Part shown: one piece after another, positions 51,840-63,037 of the stretch
How the letters are laid out: each line of letters opens with the position of its first letter
Numbering within the stretch: position 1 is the first letter of the stretch
Assembly: GCA_016214855.1 (NCBI GenBank)
Contig: JACRMT010000002.1
Coordinates: 124,001-188,000 of the forward strand
DNA length: 64,000 nucleotides
Direction of reading: 5' to 3'
Origin: Nitrospirota bacterium
GTDB lineage: Bacteria > Nitrospirota > Thermodesulfovibrionia > Thermodesulfovibrionales > UBA6898
Made by a program: the position numbers and the translations under genes
Notes under the pieces: model-generated
What the model was told of the DNA's origin: nothing
Databases searched by the model: none
The model's input: only the letters and a program-made list of their open reading frames with translations

Positions 51840-52886
51840 CTATCTCTCTACGATGATGCGCGTAGAGGCTGCCGCATCTCCTTCAGCAAGATCTCCTATA
51901 TATGCGGCGAGGATCTTCTCTTTTTCGAGAGCAGAGATCAGGGCTGCCTTTTTGTCTGCCGGCACAAAGATCAGCAGACCGCCTGAGGTCTGTGCGTCAT
52001 TGATCAGTATCTTCTCAACATCCGGGACCGCTTTTTCATACATGACGTGCTGGCTATAGTTCTTGAAATTCGCCATGGTGCCGCCCGGCACCTTATTCAT
52101 GCCGGCAAGCCTCACTGCCTCTTCGAAAAACGGTACATTGCCGGTATGCAGTGTGGCCCGGCATCTGCTGGCTGTGAGCACCTCGTTAAGATGGCCGATC
52201 AGGCCGAAGCCTGTTATGTCGGTTGCAGTGCTCACGCCGATTTCGATCATGATCTCGCTTGCGCGTTTATTCAGAGCAGCCATCGAGAGGGTGAACTCCT
52301 CGATCACCGCATCGCTGCAGAGGCCTGCCTTGACGCCTGTGGAGATCACGCCGGTGCCGATCTTCTTGGTGAGGACCATGGCGTCTCCGGGCCGTGCCTT
52401 GGTGTTGTCGAGGATCTTGTCAGGATGGACAAGGCCCATGACCGTGTATCCGAACTTCGGCTCCTTGTCACGGATGGTATGGCCTCCGATGATCGAGACG
52501 CCTGCCTCTGTCATCTTGTCGCTTCCGCCCTGCATCACCTTATGCAGGGACGGGAAGAATTCAGGCTGGTTCGGGAACATGGCAAGGTTCAGGCTGACCA
52601 CAGCCCTGCCGCCCATTGCCCATACATCGGAAAGTGAATTTGCTGCAGAGATCGCGCCGAACCAGTATGGGTCGTCAACGATCGGCGTAAAGAAGTCTGT
52701 TGTCAGGACAACGGCGACCTCGTCATTGATTCTGTACACGCCTGCATCGTCTGCATTGTTCGAGCCGACCAGAACATTTTTATCTGTTATTGCTGGCAGC
52801 TGACCCAGAACCTGGGCCAGGTCCGAAGGACTGAATTTTGCCGCTCAACCCGCGCAGCCGGAAAGACTGGTGAGTTTGAGATCCAT
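51840..52886 (-). CDS. selD: Selenide, water dikinase SelD, itself a selenoprotein (Sec14)
   Basis: SelD makes selenophosphate from selenide and ATP, the Se donor for Sec-tRNA and selenouridine. The full frame from ATG 52886 (behind GAGGAGGTGGCGC) is 348 aa with one in-frame TGA at 52845-52847. The N-terminus reads MDLKLTSLSGCAG-U-AAKFSP, the active-site loop in which many SelD proteins have Cys or Sec at exactly this place. Downstream are the family segments VLVGSNNADDAGVYRI and TDFFTPIVDDPYWFGAI. A hairpin at 52808-52824 fits a SECIS element. Annotating only from the next ATG would lose the catalytic loop. It follows a selenocysteine-lyase-like gene by 90 nt. Confidence 0.95.
52808..52824 (-). 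promoter_or_regulatory. Candidate bacterial SECIS element of selD
   Basis: Read on the minus strand, GGACCTG and CAGGTTC form a 7-bp stem (one G-T) with a GCC loop. The loop starts 27 nt after the UGA and its first base is G, as expected of bacterial SECIS hairpins. Confidence 0.7.
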
Positions 52887-55371: not shown

Positions 55372-56043
55372 CTACGACTTTTTCGCCAATATGCAGACAA
55401 AGCCTGCATCTTTTATCAAGACTTCACACGTCTCTTCTTTTTGCAGATTTTCTGATGGTGGCTGGCAGAGCGCTGAGGAGTATTGCTCTGCTTTCATGCC
55501 CTCGTTTATAAGCATGGCCTGTACCTCTGCAATGCTGAAAAAGTTCGCGTATTGGTAAATAGAGTCCTTTTCTCTGCCTTTCTGCATATAAGACCTTCCC
55601 CATGGGCTCTCCCGATTTATTAGACCGATGACCACGCCACCGTCTCCTTTCAGAACCCTGCGGGTCTCTGAGATAACCTTTTGTGGATCCTCCACAAAAC
55701 AGAGGGTAAACAGAATGAAGACGCAGCCGAAAAAGCTGTCAGCGTAAGGAAGTTTTTCGCCAAAGGCCTGCGCAACATTTACGCCTCTTTCCCTGGCCAT
55801 AGTGAGCAATGCTTCTGAAGGCTCAACGCCGTATCCTATTCCAAGCGCCTTTGCAAACCTTCCGGAGCCGACTCCTATTTCAAGAAAGGGTGGCGATAAA
55901 TTCTTCATCAGGAGTCGTATCGCTTTCACCTCAGCATCAAAAAGAATGCGGCCGTCCGGATCGTCAAACCAGTGATCATACTCTTCTGCATGAAGAGAGA
56001 AGGCTTCAGCTGCTGAAGTTGCGTGCCTGCTCAGTCTATCCAC
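55372..56043 (-). CDS. SAM-dependent methyltransferase (class I)
   Basis: The 223-aa protein has the class I Rossmann motif FLEIGVGSGRFAKALG, motif II-like EPSEALLTMARE and a motif IV-like FILFTLCFVED. It resembles UbiE/COQ5-type methyltransferases acting on small molecules. It overlaps the LolA-like gene start by 13 nt. The substrate is unknown; context suggests a lipid-like or thiol/selenol molecule exported by the MMPL pump, which is speculative. Confidence 0.85.
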   Translation of the reverse strand: MDRLSRHATSAAEAFSLHAEEYDHWFDDPDGRILFDAEVKAIRLLMKNLSPPFLEIGVGSGRFAKALGIGYGVEPSEALLTMARERGVNVAQAFGEKLPYADSFFGCVFILFTLCFVEDPQKVISETRRVLKGDGGVVIGLINRESPWGRSYMQKGREKDSIYQYANFFSIAEVQAMLINEGMKAEQYSSALCQPPSENLQKEETCEVLIKDAGFVCILAKKS

Positions 56044-56819
56044 TTTTTCGGCGGCTGCTTGAGAAAGCGCTCAGTAAAGAGACTGTCCTCAATGTTAATG
56101 TTGTAGTCCACCTTGCTATAGGTAACCTCTGTGGAATGACCACTCTGAAGGTTCTTCATTGTTCGCTTTGTGATGGTGGGCAAGCTTTTCACATCCTTTA
56201 TTTCATCCGCGGTGAAAGTCTTATACAGGTCTCCGCGCTTGTCATAATACTCTTCCTTCATCGGAAGGGAGTTTGTCTTGTCGATCCAGGCAAGCTTGTA
56301 ACTGTAATCAACATCAGCAGTCTTCGGGGTGCTTTTTATCACATAACAGTCCCTTGCACCGAGTTTTTCCTCTTTACTTATTGCATGCGTATCATCTTCG
56401 ATATCCCTTCCGGATACGTCCTCATAGGTGAAATCCGAACCAACAAAGCTCGACCGCTTGTCCTGAGCTGCAATTCGGCGCACCATGCTGATAGCCGGAA
56501 CGAACAGCCATCTGTCATCATCTTTCTTCGGATATTTGTACACCATAAAGGTCATGTCCTTCACATCTGCCGGCTGAAAGAAGTATATGAAATACTTTTG
56601 ATCGCCGCCGGTCTCTCCAAAGTTCTTTCTGAGCATGGTCATCTCCCTGACCCTTTCCTGTCCACCTTTGCTCACAAGCTTCATTACTACTCTTGCCTTG
56701 AAGTCCTTGCCCGGATACAGGAATGCGGCCTGGGACTTTTTCATTACCTCGTCGGCAGTTACGGCAAAAACCTCCATCGGCAGCAGAAGCGCCACTAGTA
56801 GCATCACCAATTGTTTCAT
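56031..56819 (-). CDS. LolA-like outer-membrane lipoprotein-sorting protein
   Basis: The 262-aa protein has a signal peptide (to about residue 19) and a periplasmic beta-sheet fold of the LolA_like family (PF17131 type), visible in RVVMKLVSKGGQERVREMTM and WLFVPAISMVRRIA segments. Such proteins shuttle hydrophobic cargo across the periplasm and often go with MMPL exporters and barrel proteins, as here. It starts 22 nt after the Fe-S oxidoreductase gene's stop. Confidence 0.88.
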   Translation of the reverse strand: MKQLVMLLVALLLPMEVFAVTADEVMKKSQAAFLYPGKDFKARVVMKLVSKGGQERVREMTMLRKNFGETGGDQKYFIYFFQPADVKDMTFMVYKYPKKDDDRWLFVPAISMVRRIAAQDKRSSFVGSDFTYEDVSGRDIEDDTHAISKEEKLGARDCYVIKSTPKTADVDYSYKLAWIDKTNSLPMKEEYYDKRGDLYKTFTADEIKDVKSLPTITKRTMKNLQSGHSTEVTYSKVDYNINIEDSLFTERFLKQPPKKWID

Positions 56820-56841: not shown

Positions 56842-58047
56842 TTATTCCAATTGACCTGCGATCAATTCCATTATGTCCGTAATCCGAATCTGCTTGTCAT
56901 GTCCCTGCATCGCCTCGTTTACCTGCGCATAGCAGGCAGGGCAGCTGAGGATAAGCCGGTCTGCTTTCTTTGCTACGGCCTCGTCAATCGTCAATCTCCC
57001 CATTGCATTTGCATTCTCCTGAAAAACCTTGCGCGCAGCTCCTCCGGCACCACAGCAGCGCGAGTCGAGGCCGTGACTGTCGAATTCGAGGAGTTCTATG
57101 CCCTTCACACTTCTCAGCACAGCCCTGGGCTCCTCGATCACACCGACTCCTCTGCTCAAATAGCAGGGGTCATGGTAGATCAGACGTTCGTTCAGTTCTT
57201 TCTTCAGCTTCAGCTTTCCATTTTTCAATGCCTCGGTGACAAACTGCGTGATATGCCTGATCTTGAAAGGCAGCTCCTGTCCGTATATTGATGGCCAATC
57301 ACGGGCCATGATATTTACGCATCAGGGACAGGACGTGAGCAGCAGCTTTACCCCCTTTGCCTTGTACCCTTCCACAAGCCTTTTGACCAGGTCTTCAAGC
57401 ATGTCATGCTGACCTGAAATAAACAGAGGGAAGCCGCAGCAGACCTCTTCCTCAGGCCCCAGCATGGTGAAGCGATCGCCGATAGCACTTAGTACGAGAA
57501 CGTCACCCTTTACCATCGGCTGCGCTGAATATGCACCTGTGCAGCCTGCATAATAGGCGATTTCAGCATTTTTCTCGACCTTCACATTATCGGGGAACCA
57601 GGGACTGAATCTCTCTTTGGCCGGCATGTTGTAAGGGTTTCCGGTATTTTTGATCACCTCGGGCATCTTGGCCTGGCCCCCGATAGGGCCGATGCCGCGT
57701 TTGACCATCTCTTTCCTCAGCATAGGCCAGAGACGCTGTGTAAAGATGCCCACAGCACAGTGCTGTCCGCAGGCGCCGCAGGTAGTGCATTCAAATACAG
57801 CCTTTGTGAAATCCTCAAGGAGCCGATTGTCGATCCTGTCCGGTCCCATCAGCTTTGCCTTGAGCCCCTCGGTCGCTTTTATGAACTCCTTGAAAACTCG
57901 GATCTTTTCTGGCGGTGAGATGGCAGGATCGCTTTTGACGTTCTGCACCGGGCAGAACTGCAGGCACTGTCCGCACTGTGTGCAGGCATCCAGCTCGATA
58001 AGCTGCTGAGGGGTGAGGCTATTCGTAAAGCAGTCTTTCGGTTTCAT
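56842..58047 (-). CDS. Fe-S oxidoreductase with two CCG domains, selenoprotein (Sec242 in CPUC)
   Basis: Read through one in-frame TGA (57322-57324) the gene encodes 401 aa, the normal length of GlpC/HdrD-type proteins. Two ferredoxin-type clusters come first (CTQCGQCLQFCP, CTTCGACGQHC). A first CCG domain follows (EVCCGFPLF, ending SCP-U-C) and then a second (SRCCGAGG, ending SCPACYAQV). Sec242 lies inside the CPxC of domain 1, exactly where domain 2 has Ala. No frameshift is needed, and a good SECIS-like hairpin follows the TGA. The ATG overlaps the MMPL stop. Expected role: electron transfer or thiol/disulfide chemistry at the membrane. A plain nonsense mutation is the alternative. Confidence 0.88.
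57291..57309 (-). promoter_or_regulatory. Candidate bacterial SECIS element of the Fe-S oxidoreductase
   Basis: On the minus strand, ATGGCC and GGCCAT form a perfect 6-bp stem with a 7-nt loop (CGTGATT). The loop begins 19 nt after the UGA and has G as its second base. Confidence 0.75.
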
Positions 58048-60341
58048 CTCGACTTAAGCAGCCAGCCCTGCATGAGCGTGATGAGGGCAGGCAGATAGAT
58101 AAGTGTCATTACGGCGCTCAGGAGCATCATGCTCACAATGAACGCGCCGACGGTTATATAAGGCGTGAGCGGCGCGAATATCATCACGGCGAAGGAAGCG
58201 GCAAAAAGGATTGCATTTCGCATGATTCCTTTTCCGGGCCGCGCTGCGGTCCAGAGGAGAGCATCAGACAAAGGCTCTGTTGGAACTTCCTTCAGTCTCT
58301 GCCGCAGTCTGGACACAAAATGGATAGCAAAGTCCACGGCCATACCAAGCGAGAGGCAGGAAAGCACGGATATTGGCATATCAAAGTCTTTCCCAACATA
58401 GCCGACTACGCCGTACAGGAGCAGGACTGTGAAAAGCAGCGGTGCGTACCCTACAATTGCCCATTTCAGAGAGCGGAAATCATAGGCAAGTATGCCGAAG
58501 ACAACCACCAGCGCAAGAATGAACCCCTTTACCATGTCCCCAAGCACCTCGTCATTCCAGACAAGATTGAAATAGGCGATGCCGGCTGGTTTCATCTCCA
58601 TGGAAGTGGGATTGCTCTTCTTGTATTCTTCAACTGCCTTTATAACCTCTCTCATGGCATTGGCATCCCATGTCTTGAGCTGCACCCAAATGTTTGCGCT
58701 CTTAAAGGGATAGTCAACGACATTGTCCAGGTCTGACGGTTTGGCAGACATCGAAAAGAGGAAGATATACTGGCCAATCATCTCTTTTGTCTCCGGCACA
58801 GCATCATACTTAGGGTTATCGTCATGGAGCACGCGGTTTATCCGCTTCACGTAATCAACAACTGACGTTGTCTTGCCGACAACAGGCAGCTTTTCGAGAT
58901 GTTGCTGGAGCCCCTCTATATACCGCATTGCCCCAGGTGTCTTGATGTAATCGTCTTCCTTTGCAATGGCCACTACATAGCCGAGCGATGTGCCGCCGAG
59001 GGCCTTGTTAATTGCCGTATCAGCGACTCTTACATCGCTGTCTTTTTTGAACCACTCTACCAGGTTATTGTTCACGACAATCTTTGACAGTCCGATGACT
59101 GCTATTACAAAGAGGATGAGTCCGACCAGAACAGTCTGCTTTGGATGATGCGCTCCGAATCCGGCGAGACCTCTCAAAAATTCTGAACCCCTGCCTGCAT
59201 CGATATCTTCTGCATGGGCTATTTTCGCCAACTTCTCGTCCTTCACAAAGGTGAACATGGCAGGTATAAAGCTAAAACTGAGAATTCTGAGGGCAATAGT
59301 GCCGAAGGCAACAAGACCGCCAAAGACCTTAACTGGAATGATGTTCATAAAAAGAAGCACGCCAAAGCCTGCTGCTGTTGCAAGTGCGGTGTTCCTCACC
59401 GGGCGGCTTACCGCCTGCATGGTCTCGATGATCGCTCTTTTCTTGTCCTTTGTCTCTCTGTAGCGGAAGTAAAATTCATTGAAGATATGCATGCTGTCTG
59501 TTGCGATCGCCATAAGAAAGACCGGCGCCATGGAACTCATGATATGGATTGGGAAGCCCAGTCCGATGAGGAGTCCCATACTCCAGACAATGCTGATCAT
59601 GGCGTCCATCATCAGCGTGATCGAGAGGAAAAGATCCCTGAACATCAGATATCTGACAATAAGCATGACCATGCCTGCAATAGGTGCGAACAGGGCCATG
59701 AGCTTGAACATATCTGCGCCGAAGGTGTCGCGGGCAACCGGATCACCGGCAACATAGTATTGTTCATCTCCCTTTTCTTTTTTGACAATCTCCCGTATGT
59801 TGTCTGCGATCTCCTTGCCGTTTGAGCCCTTTTCGAGCGGGACATAAATGGCTGTTGTCTTGCCGTCCTTTGAGATGATACGGTTCAGAAAAAGAGGGTT
59901 CTCATACAGCATCTTCCTGAGATATTCGAGCCCCTTTTCATCTTCAGGAGCTTTTGTCATCAAGGGAGCGACCTTTAACGCTGCGTCTTCTACGGTGACA
60001 TTGTCTATGGTCGTAAAACTGGACACATCCCTTGCTGCAACGCCCTTGAGCTTAAGTATTTCATCCGTGATCCTTTGAATCTTTCCGAGTGTTCCTGTGT
60101 TGAGAATGCCTTTTTCGTTCACAATGCCAAGGGCAATCATGTCCTCGTACAGGCTGAAGGTCTTTTCGACCTCATCGTTCCATACCCTCACATCAGACGT
60201 TGCGGGGAGCATGTTCTTCGGATTCGTGTCGGTCCTCATCTTCGGAAACTGCGTCATGAAGGCCATGGTGACGAGTATTGAAAGCACCACAATTAGTTTC
60301 GGATGATTTACCGAAAATTCAACAAGAGAAAACTTTTTCAT
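58044..60341 (-). CDS. MMPL/RND-family exporter
   Basis: The 765-aa membrane protein has about twelve TM helices in two halves, each with a large periplasmic loop, as in RND-superfamily exporters for hydrophobic cargo (hopanoid-type and MMPL proteins). Signatures include SSMAPVFLMAIATDSMHIFN in the first half and LSLGMAVDFAIHFVSRLRQR in the second. Its stop overlaps the Fe-S oxidoreductase start as ATGA. With the LolA-like and barrel proteins it should form a trans-envelope path. The cargo is unknown. Confidence 0.92.
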   Translation of the reverse strand: MKKFSLVEFSVNHPKLIVVLSILVTMAFMTQFPKMRTDTNPKNMLPATSDVRVWNDEVEKTFSLYEDMIALGIVNEKGILNTGTLGKIQRITDEILKLKGVAARDVSSFTTIDNVTVEDAALKVAPLMTKAPEDEKGLEYLRKMLYENPLFLNRIISKDGKTTAIYVPLEKGSNGKEIADNIREIVKKEKGDEQYYVAGDPVARDTFGADMFKLMALFAPIAGMVMLIVRYLMFRDLFLSITLMMDAMISIVWSMGLLIGLGFPIHIMSSMAPVFLMAIATDSMHIFNEFYFRYRETKDKKRAIIETMQAVSRPVRNTALATAAGFGVLLFMNIIPVKVFGGLVAFGTIALRILSFSFIPAMFTFVKDEKLAKIAHAEDIDAGRGSEFLRGLAGFGAHHPKQTVLVGLILFVIAVIGLSKIVVNNNLVEWFKKDSDVRVADTAINKALGGTSLGYVVAIAKEDDYIKTPGAMRYIEGLQQHLEKLPVVGKTTSVVDYVKRINRVLHDDNPKYDAVPETKEMIGQYIFLFSMSAKPSDLDNVVDYPFKSANIWVQLKTWDANAMREVIKAVEEYKKSNPTSMEMKPAGIAYFNLVWNDEVLGDMVKGFILALVVVFGILAYDFRSLKWAIVGYAPLLFTVLLLYGVVGYVGKDFDMPISVLSCLSLGMAVDFAIHFVSRLRQRLKEVPTEPLSDALLWTAARPGKGIMRNAILFAASFAVMIFAPLTPYITVGAFIVSMMLLSAVMTLIYLPALITLMQGWLLKSR

Positions 60342-60392: not shown

Positions 60393-60815
60393 TTAGAAAG
60401 TCAGATTCATGTCTGCCGGAACCATAACTTCTTTGTAGTAGGTCGCTGGATTTGCCAGTTCCACACCCTCCACAAAGTCAGACTTTGACATGCCGAACAG
60501 AGGGACGTTAAGAGGGCAGGCAAGCATCTTTGCCCCTTCTTTATAGAGCATGAAGAGCATCTCCTCGACCGTGGGAAGTTCCATCTCTTCCATTCTCTTC
60601 ATCACAGCCTCACCGATCTCCTCAGGTTGATCAGGCATGCATTTCAGATCCTTCACCTTGTCTTTGTGAATCGCGATGACCCCGCGTGAACCGAAGAAGA
60701 TCGTGACATTAGAGCCCTCCCTCAAGAGGCTCAGAGCAGTCATTGCGGCATTGAATACCTGGCAGAGTTCATCATGGAAGCACATCACTGATACATTTTT
60801 TATTACCTTTGTCAT
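60393..60815 (-). CDS. DsrE2-like sulfur-carrier protein
   Basis: The 140-aa protein matches DsrE/DsrE2-type small proteins (MCFHDELCQVFNAAMTALSL, VTIFFGSRGVIAIHKDKVK), with a candidate persulfide cysteine in ACPLNVPLFGMSKSDF. Family members pass sulfane sulfur between enzymes. It lies between the ArsR regulator and the MMPL exporter, 51 nt from the latter. Confidence 0.85.
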   Translation of the reverse strand: MTKVIKNVSVMCFHDELCQVFNAAMTALSLLREGSNVTIFFGSRGVIAIHKDKVKDLKCMPDQPEEIGEAVMKRMEEMELPTVEEMLFMLYKEGAKMLACPLNVPLFGMSKSDFVEGVELANPATYYKEVMVPADMNLTF

Positions 60816-60836: not shown

Positions 60837-61157
60837 TTATATATGTTCCTGCTGATGCACGGGAGAATTTTCCATAAGCTGTGCCAGGGCATCCTGCATA
60901 AGACTGCATGCCACACTAATATTATTGTTCGCTATTCTGTAATAAATATTAATACCGTCCCTTCTTGTTTTAAGAATCCTCATCTTCCGCATAACTGACA
61001 GATGCTGCGATGTATTGGCCTTTGGGATGCCGAGTTCCTTCGTGATATGGCCGGCAGACAGTTCTCCTGTCTTGAGCAGGTTAATTATCTCAAGCCTCCT
61101 CGAATTGGAAAAGGTTTTGCAAAACTCCGCATGAAAATCTAACACCTCTTTTTTCAT
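60837..61157 (-). CDS. ArsR-family regulator, possible persulfide sensor
   Basis: The 106-aa winged-helix protein has the HTH segment LGIPKANTSQHLSVMRKMRI. It carries two cysteines, C13 in the first helix and C84 near the C-terminal helix. Sulfide-sensing ArsR proteins (SqrR/BigR) also use two cysteines, though at other positions, so reactive-sulfur sensing is inferred. Its ATG overlaps the stop of the SQR-like gene, so it is probably the local regulator. Confidence 0.85.
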   Translation of the reverse strand: MKKEVLDFHAEFCKTFSNSRRLEIINLLKTGELSAGHITKELGIPKANTSQHLSVMRKMRILKTRRDGINIYYRIANNNISVACSLMQDALAQLMENSPVHQQEHI

Positions 61158-62341
61158 GGCAGCCCGCTCAGTCCGTTTTTCATCTTATAGAGAAAGTATT
61201 TCTCAAACCCGACCTTCATCCATTTTGCCCATATGCCTTTTTTTGTAAATGACGACTGGCGCGGAGGGAGTACCGGAGAGGCCTTCATCAGCGCGGCTGT
61301 GTTGCCCATATCCATCAGGCAGACAACACTCAATTCGTCCATGGCTGGCGGCGGTGTGCCTTTAATATCAGAATAGATCGTGGCAGCCGCTGTCTTTGCC
61401 ATCTTTACGGTCATGAAGCCTGTCTTTGGAACGCCGGTAGGTACGGGAGTAACCTCAGGAGGCGCTATCGCCATAGTCACGCCGATGGCAAAGATATTCT
61501 TGTGTTTGGTATGCCTGTAGTTCTTGTCAACAGGGATAAAGCCCCTCGGGTTGCCTAAGGGTGCAACAGCAGGCACGCCTTTGAATGGCGGGGCTATCAT
61601 GGCGAGTTTAAAAGGTATCTTTGTCCCGTCTTTCAGCTTTATCTCACCAGGCGTCACTTCTTCAATAGCCTGGCTCACAACTGATTTGATGTCCCTGTCT
61701 GCGAACTCGTCTTCCATGAAGCGCTTCGAGTTTCCAAGCCCTCCGACACCCATATGGCCGAGATACGGTTCAGACGTGAGATAGATGATCGGCACCTTAT
61801 GCCGCATCTTCCTCCTTTTCAGTTCATCATGCATCTCAAAGGCAAGCTCATAGGTGGGGCCAAAGCAGCTGACCATCTGGGAAGATCCGACAACAACAGG
61901 TCCAGGGTCTTCGAGAATCTTCTTCCATGTCTGGCCTGTCCTGACAGCGTGATCGAGGGTGAAGGTGCAGTCAGTGTATCCCTTGTCAGGGCCAAGACCG
62001 GGTATCTCATCAAATGAAAGATGAGGCCCTGTTGAGATGACGAGGTGATCGTATGAGAACTCTCTTGTTGCAGTCTTGACCTTCGATGTCTCAGGATCTA
62101 CCCCTATCGCGGCTTCATGGATGAACTGGATTCCCTTTGATTTAAGTATTTCACTGACATTCAGTGTGATATCCTCAGGCCCTCTCCAGCCCATGATCAG
62201 CCATGGGAGCGAAGGCAGAAATACGAATCGGTTATCTTCGCTGATAACCGTAACCTCTGCCTGCGAGCCTAACAGCCTTTTTATCTCAAAGGCTGCTGTA
62301 AGCCCTCCGAACGAGCCTCCTAAAATTACTATTCTTGCCAT
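61154..62341 (-). CDS. Sulfide:quinone oxidoreductase-like flavoprotein
   Basis: The 395-aa FAD protein starts with MARIVILGGSFGGLTAAFE and has the second FAD motif FAIGVTMAIAPPEVTPVPTG. Cysteines at family-like positions are in GYTDCTFTLDH, SSQMVSCFGPTYE and VVCLMDMGN. The C-terminal amphipathic segment (WMKVGFEKYFLYKMKNG) suits peripheral membrane binding. SQR oxidises sulfide to sulfane sulfur and passes electrons to quinone, supplying the Dsr/Tus carriers next to it. I chose ATG 62341 behind GGGGGAG; a frame 12 codons longer overlaps the upstream gene. Confidence 0.87.
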   Translation of the reverse strand: MARIVILGGSFGGLTAAFEIKRLLGSQAEVTVISEDNRFVFLPSLPWLIMGWRGPEDITLNVSEILKSKGIQFIHEAAIGVDPETSKVKTATREFSYDHLVISTGPHLSFDEIPGLGPDKGYTDCTFTLDHAVRTGQTWKKILEDPGPVVVGSSQMVSCFGPTYELAFEMHDELKRRKMRHKVPIIYLTSEPYLGHMGVGGLGNSKRFMEDEFADRDIKSVVSQAIEEVTPGEIKLKDGTKIPFKLAMIAPPFKGVPAVAPLGNPRGFIPVDKNYRHTKHKNIFAIGVTMAIAPPEVTPVPTGVPKTGFMTVKMAKTAAATIYSDIKGTPPPAMDELSVVCLMDMGNTAALMKASPVLPPRQSSFTKKGIWAKWMKVGFEKYFLYKMKNGLSGLP

Positions 62342-62363
62342 AGCACACTCCCCCTTTGTATTA

Positions 62364-62651
62364 TTAGAACATGCCAACTACGTTATTGCTTTCCGTCATC
62401 AAATCCACAAGCCCATCATAGGTAATCTCTTTTGCGCGCCGGTCCGACTCAATTGAATTCAGTCCGCGGAGTTTGCGATCATCTGAAAGCACATATGCAG
62501 TCCCGCAAAAACCCAGGTCTTCAAGGTGTTCCTGCTGTATAAAATAGACCCCGTTTTGCAAGAGTACTACGTCAGCGGCCAAGTCTCTGGCCATTTTAAC
62601 ACCCCTTCTCCCATCTACTGTGTCTGGTGCGCTTCTTACTATTACAAGCAT
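62364..62651 (-). CDS. DsrH/TusB-like small protein
   Basis: The 95-aa protein resembles DsrH/TusB proteins (MLVIVRSAPDTVDGRRGVKM, then ADVVLLQNGVYFIQQE). TusB-type proteins sit in the TusBCD sulfur relay. The only cysteine is in LGFCGTAYVL. A good AAAGGAGAA precedes the start; it is followed by the SQR gene after 22 nt. Confidence 0.8.
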   Translation of the reverse strand: MLVIVRSAPDTVDGRRGVKMARDLAADVVLLQNGVYFIQQEHLEDLGFCGTAYVLSDDRKLRGLNSIESDRRAKEITYDGLVDLMTESNNVVGMF

Positions 62652-62683: not shown

Positions 62684-63037
62684 TCAAAAGATCATTGTTT
62701 GGTCAGCTTCTTTTAACAGAGAGGCTATATCTGATTCGTTTTTGACCTGCACGCCTGCAGGAAGCTCTTCTTCTTTTACTGACTGTAACGCCAGTGAAAG
62801 ATAATCAGCATACACATCCACGCCCATATCAACACAGTCCTTCAATGTGGACTCCAGATTTGTAAAACCGGTCCCTGTATCGTCCTGCCCCTTTTTGGCA
62901 AGGAGCACGCCTCCGTCAACCAATATGAGCGACACTTTCCAGTCGCCCGACGCCGCACCCAGCGCATGTCTGACAGCTTCTGCTGCATTAATATCGCCAT
63001 ACGGCGGTTTTCTGAGTATCATTGCTATATGTCCCAT
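62684..63037 (-). CDS. DsrE/DsrF (TusC/TusD)-like protein
   Basis: The 117-aa protein has the DsrE/F fold signature (MGHIAMILRKPPYGDINAAE, KVSLILVDGGVLLAKKG) with a single cysteine in LKDCVDMGVDVYAD. It likely receives persulfide sulfur. It is flanked by the DsrE selenoprotein (9 nt upstream) and the TusB-like gene (32 nt downstream), giving a TusBCD-like trio. Confidence 0.85.
   Translation of the reverse strand: MGHIAMILRKPPYGDINAAEAVRHALGAASGDWKVSLILVDGGVLLAKKGQDDTGTGFTNLESTLKDCVDMGVDVYADYLSLALQSVKEEELPAGVQVKNESDIASLLKEADQTMIF

Follow-up and report, generated by a model that had tools for sequence, protein, structure and literature searches.

An in-frame UGA, almost certainly a selenocysteine codon, in the CPUC motif of an HdrD-like iron-sulfur oxidoreductase from Nitrospirota

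The window, that is, the whole stretch of 64,000 nucleotides of Nitrospirota DNA that was analysed, carries on its minus strand a gene in which a UGA codon almost certainly encodes selenocysteine (Sec) within a CPUC motif (Table 1). The best explanation of this gene, in which we place slightly more belief than doubt, is that it encodes a selenoprotein, an HdrD-like iron-sulfur oxidoreductase whose Sec would reach from the first CCG domain to the cluster of the second and would take part in disulfide or persulfide chemistry.

The gene appears as two abutting open reading frames in one frame of the minus strand, 58047..57322 (241 residues, ending in TSCP) and 57309..56842, and when the TGA at 57324-57322 is translated as a residue these become one protein of 401 residues with a single U, at position 242, in the context LLLTSCPUCVNIM. 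It had been proposed from the sequence alone that two in-phase, abutting frames, for which no strand was given, rebuild a full-length 401-residue protein with Sec between the two Cys of a CPxC motif, and all of this was borne out, the motif being C240-P-U242-C243. The same proposal had put Sec within a ligand motif, which stands in so far as the residue lies between two ligand Cys, although U242 itself is an extra residue outside the five canonical cluster ligands. Genes of this type will be broken at the UGA by gene callers.

Table 1. Features of the selenoprotein gene and its surroundings, with positions in the window
Feature	Position	Strand	Basis
Selenoprotein gene, HdrD-like Fe-S oxidoreductase, 401 aa with Sec242	56842..58047	minus	single frame with TGA as Sec; CCG and Fer4 domains; orthologues with same TGA
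UGA codon, Sec242 of CPUC	57322..57324	minus	frame reading; same UGA in orthologues; Cys column in homologues
SECIS-like hairpin, 6-bp stem, 7-nt loop	57291..57309	minus	ATGGCC-CGTGATT-GGCCAT
First [4Fe-4S] motif, C22-x2-C25-x2-C28-x3-C32	57952..57984	minus	four Cys invariant, 65 members
Second [4Fe-4S] motif, C87-x2-C90-x2-C93-x3-C97	57757..57789	minus	invariant, 65 members
CCG domain 1: C169, C203-C204, C240-P-U242-C243	57319..57543	minus	Pfam PF02754; Cys invariant
CCG domain 2: C295, C331-C332, C369-x2-C372	56932..57165	minus	Pfam PF02754; Cys invariant
MMPL-family RND transporter, conserved upstream neighbour	58044..60341	minus	domains, synteny
LolA-like outer-membrane lipoprotein-sorting protein, conserved downstream neighbour	56031..56819	minus	domains, synteny
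SQR-like flavoprotein, conserved in Sec-type locus	61154..62377	minus	below-cutoff type III SQR match; synteny
DsrE-family protein, conserved in Sec-type locus	60393..60815	minus	domains, synteny
DsrE/TusD-like protein, conserved in Sec-type locus	62684..63037	minus	domains, synteny
selD, itself a selenoprotein gene (Sec codon 52847-52845, GCAGU)	51840..52886	minus	5 kb from HdrD-like gene

The Sec reading follows from the presence of the same UGA in two more MAGs, from a column that is otherwise Cys (62/62), from selection acting on both sides of the codon and from a full Sec machinery. A search of 150 relatives revealed the same in-frame TGA in one genome of the same genus (G003, 92% identical) and in one of another genus of the family (G025, 87%), and no stop codon in the other close full-length homologues. 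Among 65 family members, column 242 holds Cys in 62, which read CPCC at the CPUC site, and Sec in three, with no other residue, and all 18 Cys predicted to bind clusters are invariant (65/65); the hydrophobic residue in truncated homologues that the sequence-only reading had said would speak against it was thus met in no family member, and the Cys genes are untruncated at that point. Between the genome of the window and G003, dN/dS is 0.07 before the UGA and 0.085 after it, indicating purifying selection on both halves of the gene. The genome of the window has selA, selB, selD and tRNA-Sec(UCA), and G003 and G025 also have selA, selB and tRNA-Sec; in G002, of the same genus, neither selA nor a full selB was found, and the sole copy of the gene is of the Cys type. 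That the UGA is a true stop, marking a pseudogene or separating two proteins, or that it is an assembly error, is very improbable: although it lies in frame, the downstream frame happens to begin with ATG at the hairpin and the hairpin alone is weak evidence for Sec, the same codon occurs in three separate assemblies from two genera, falls exactly on an invariant Cys, has similar constraint on either side (dN/dS about 0.07-0.09) and is accompanied by the machinery, whereas G002 has a Cys copy only. Recoding of TGA throughout the genome was considered and rejected, TGA being the ordinary stop of many genes there.

At synonymous sites the divergence from G003 is uneven (dS 0.83 before the UGA, 0.29 after it), and the part before the UGA is nearer to G025 than the part after it; recombination inside the Sec gene is a possible reading of this mosaic pattern. 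The start of selD was called too late by the ORF caller, downstream of its own UGA.

In the tree, the Sec genes group together as a single clade (support 100/99) within the Cys genes, beside Cys genes that come from the same type of locus, so that one change from Cys to Sec is the simplest history. A scan of 85k genomes with a DNA pattern for the Sec motif, narrow enough that further CPUC genes may be missed, gave six matches, two of them genuine and both in Nitrospirota MAGs (groundwater and 'palsa'); the four others were unrelated frames riddled with stops. The CPUC site is known here from three genomes only, that of the window, G003 and G025, in keeping with the earlier suspicion that it might be uncommon.

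A perfect 6-bp hairpin with G in the second loop position had also been noticed after the UGA, and its stem is indeed exact, the G (57302) standing 19 nt after the codon. The stem codons are identical in the three Sec genes, where the sole change within the hairpin falls in the loop, and Cys orthologues have other codons at this site and another predicted fold. When the same peptide was recoded at random with synonymous codons, an equal or better stem arose in 49% of cases under loose rules and in 11% under strict rules, because the peptide MARDWP itself favours such a stem. Rfam gave no match to the gene region, and a SECIS_2 search of the whole genome was likewise empty. The hairpin, as a predicted fold, is compatible with a SECIS element but weak evidence by itself, and it is not taken as proof of Sec since it is not significant against synonymous recoding.

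Regarding the family of the protein, Pfam and the 65-member alignment reveal, besides two [4Fe-4S] motifs, a pair of CCG domains that each have all five Cys, the combination that defines HdrD/HdrB. The NCBIfam models all scored below their curated cut-offs (in bits, TfrB 186.6 against 385, LdhH 137.2 against 800, GlpC 101.5 against 278, DsrK 98.4 against 400 and TmcB 75.7 against 735). The best of them, TfrB, is a subunit of the CoM/CoB-dependent fumarate reductase, and no fumarate reductase partner gene was found among the identified neighbours of the Sec gene. The initial GlpC/HdrD-like assignment therefore holds, with HdrD-like as the better fit, given that the GlpC, DsrK, TmcB and TfrB models all fall short. 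By both sequence and fold, the top PDB match is EtfD (9ojn; E 5e-29, profile 2.6e-48, TM-score 0.79 by query length for an AF2 model of pLDDT 87), followed by LutA (fold) and HdrB, and these comparisons point to a member of the HdrD/EtfD group.

The alignment with EtfD also suggests where the Sec may sit. In a HMMER alignment of about 24% identity, C240-P-U242-C243 matches EtfD C581-P-H583-C584, placing U242 at H583. It has been reported that His583, in the CPHC of the first EtfD domain, completes the noncubane cluster D2, whose other ligands are Cys 637, 672, 673, 709 and 712 of the second domain, that this His renders the EtfD cluster non-catalytic, and that Hdr, by contrast, holds its special iron through a displaceable bridging Cys (PMC13083937). 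Plasmid-borne EtfD-like proteins keep the His of a PH pair at column 242 even where Cys of domain 1 are missing (for example TDPHT and SDPHS), which independently argues that this column serves cluster 2. As EtfD His583 aligns there, we infer that Cys or Sec242 reaches across the domains to the special iron of cluster 2, either binding it or lying next to it, and, with a cluster ligand in this column of a solved relative, selenium may sit at the active-site cluster.

The genome of the window carries, besides the Sec copy, a Cys paralogue in a different setting (L041:27-10320, G000:C3), where the genes run in the order MtaA-like methyltransferase, corrinoid protein, QueG-like, corrinoid activator, HdrE/DsrM-like cytochrome, CPCC protein, cysteate synthase (455 bits, over the cut-off) and sulfopyruvate decarboxylase. 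This order recurs across the phylum (syntenic loci L091-L105), and in most Cys loci examined an HdrE-like gene precedes the CPCC gene and cysteate synthase and sulfopyruvate decarboxylase follow it. Cysteate synthase is present in 52 of the 150 relatives, all 52 of which have the CPCC gene, while two have CPCC alone and 96 neither, a statistic that is inflated by shared ancestry. Cysteate synthase and sulfopyruvate decarboxylase lead to sulfoacetaldehyde, a precursor of coenzyme M. The conserved cluster suggests coenzyme M-linked thiol chemistry for the Cys homologues; PF01837, the known family of synthases for the last step, was not found, so that use of coenzyme M is likely rather than established, and a coenzyme M-linked methyl metabolism lacking the known synthase family is likely in Nitrospirota. 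In several genomes a second HdrD-like gene, about 29% identical and with CAGC for CPCC, lies just before the HdrE-like/CPCC pair (L093:9827-10996, L094:7193-8356).

The Sec-type locus is composed of TusD-like, SQR-like, DsrE and MMPL genes, an HdrE-like gene in G025, the Sec gene, LolA, a methyltransferase-like gene and DUF1302, in this order. In G003, MMPL and the Sec gene are separated by an insertion of rhodanese-like, YedE-like, TlpA-like and CcdA-like genes (the first two assigned by eye). The HdrE-like gene was not found beside the Sec gene in the genome of the window or in G003. Cysteate synthase was not found in G025, an 82% complete MAG that has the Sec gene. We read the Sec copy as an enzyme recruited to sulfur or thiol handling.

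In the proposed mechanism, the CCG domains would hold two noncubane clusters, and electrons would travel between these, two cubane [4Fe-4S] clusters and a partner, either a membrane protein of b-type (HdrE-like) or a soluble carrier. Residue 242 would reach over to the special iron in the cluster of domain 2, like EtfD His583, and the Sec selenolate would act as an exchangeable ligand or nucleophile in making or breaking a substrate disulfide or persulfide. For the Cys paralogue, the probable role is thiol/disulfide chemistry of coenzyme M connected with corrinoid methyl transfer, and the Sec copy would have been taken up into a locus for sulfur handling (SQR-like, DsrE/TusD-like, MMPL, LolA). 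The earlier idea that Sec beside a CCG-type cluster could serve disulfide or sulfur chemistry is favoured by this gene context and is adopted here as an inference. The most specific form of the proposal is tentative, and we consider it rather unlikely to hold in every part: the selenolate of Sec242 would bind the special iron of a noncubane [4Fe-4S] cluster directly and exchangeably, and the enzyme would belong to a bacterial HdrDE-type family that, in Nitrospirota, acts on disulfides of coenzyme M in parallel with corrinoid methyl transfer.

Residue 242 could equally close the site, given that a His ligand makes the EtfD cluster non-catalytic. It would then bind the special iron of cluster 2 as a fixed ligand in a protein acting only as an electron wire, where selenium just shifts the potential; such a role is conceivable, as EtfD, the best structural and sequence match, has its non-catalytic cluster through a residue in this very column (PMC13083937), but unlikely, since all ten CCG ligand Cys are kept here, including the second CCG Cys of domain 1, as in catalytic HdrB and unlike EtfD, the neighbouring genes encode thiol and sulfur enzymes, and Sec usually replaces a redox-active Cys (PMC1794560). 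That exchange of Cys and Sec is generally a sign of a redox-active Cys (PMC1794560) is also consistent with a residue 242 that stays off the iron, as a redox thiol or selenol forming a selenenylsulfide with the substrate or a neighbouring Cys. HdrB apparently has Gly at column 242 (CNGC, in alignments read by eye), which would make a ligand there dispensable. This placement is doubtful, however, since the EtfD side chain in that column binds the cluster (PMC13083937) and relatives hold His there after losing the domain-1 ligands.

If the exchangeable-ligand proposal is true, selenium would be found at the catalytic iron of the type of noncubane cluster that cleaves disulfides in methanogenesis, where it is a clean spectroscopic label for ligand exchange (77Se EPR, Se-edge EXAFS), and the Cys and Sec copies of one genome constitute a matched pair for probing the effect of selenium. 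The Cys family, for its part, points to a bacterial phylum with a methyl metabolism linked to coenzyme M, a trait of which no description was found in the literature searched.

The Sec site at CPUC is unusual, while a selenoprotein HdrD as such has already been reported. As the sequence-only reading stated, selenoprotein Fe-S oxidoreductases have been reported, the GlpC-like type being among the listed selenoproteins (PMC1794560), with UGH as its Sec motif (PMC13188914). These UGH proteins (COG0247/PTHR43551) are also CCG-type oxidoreductases with Sec in the domain-1 loop, but unlike the CPUC protein, which has no UGH motif, they have lost the domain-1 cluster ligands. A family search in Nitrospirota retrieved TmcB-like genes with TGA exactly in the UGH motif, and the comparison of Sec columns that had been suggested at the outset placed the UGH Sec, in both MAFFT and profile-profile alignments, at column 240, the first Cys of the domain-1 CPxC, and the UGH His at column 242. 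UGH and CPUC are thus two different Sec positions in one loop, two residues apart; placing the UGH Sec at the second Cys of CCG was rejected on the same alignments. One TmcB-like gene (L115:1501-2778; G057:C19:48841-50118) has two in-frame TGAs, one in the UGH motif and the other (PUHNC) in the domain-2 CxxC, where it takes the place of the first Cys; that position, predicted to ligate a noncubane cluster, is Cys in the relative L116. The 2009 genome report on Desulfobacterium autotrophicum HRM2 describes Sec-containing HdrD4 and HdrF2 (PMC2702500), so that HdrD proteins with Sec have a precedent; the likeness of these HdrD-type proteins to ours is by that description only.

Among non-selenium systems, EtfD, the mycobacterial ETF:menaquinone oxidoreductase, resembles the protein in fold and sequence, and its own residue at column 242 is a ligand of cluster 2. 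It differs in having a fused membrane domain, the 401 residues matching its Fe-S part only, in having His rather than U or C at 242, and in the replacement of the second Cys of the domain-1 CCG by Thr, which gives a linear [3Fe-4S] cluster (PMC13083937), whereas the HdrD-like protein keeps this Cys. HdrB, on the other hand, has five Cys in both CCG domains, in the same arrangement, but apparently without the extra Cys or Sec of the domain-1 CPxC. The CoM-S-S-CoB reductases, HdrD of HdrDE and HdrB of HdrABC, have in common with the present, bacterial family two [4Fe-4S] motifs and two complete CCG domains, the residues being compared through HdrB and archaeal HdrD by description only, and the Cys paralogues adjoin a gene for an HdrE-like cytochrome, together with coenzyme M pathway genes.
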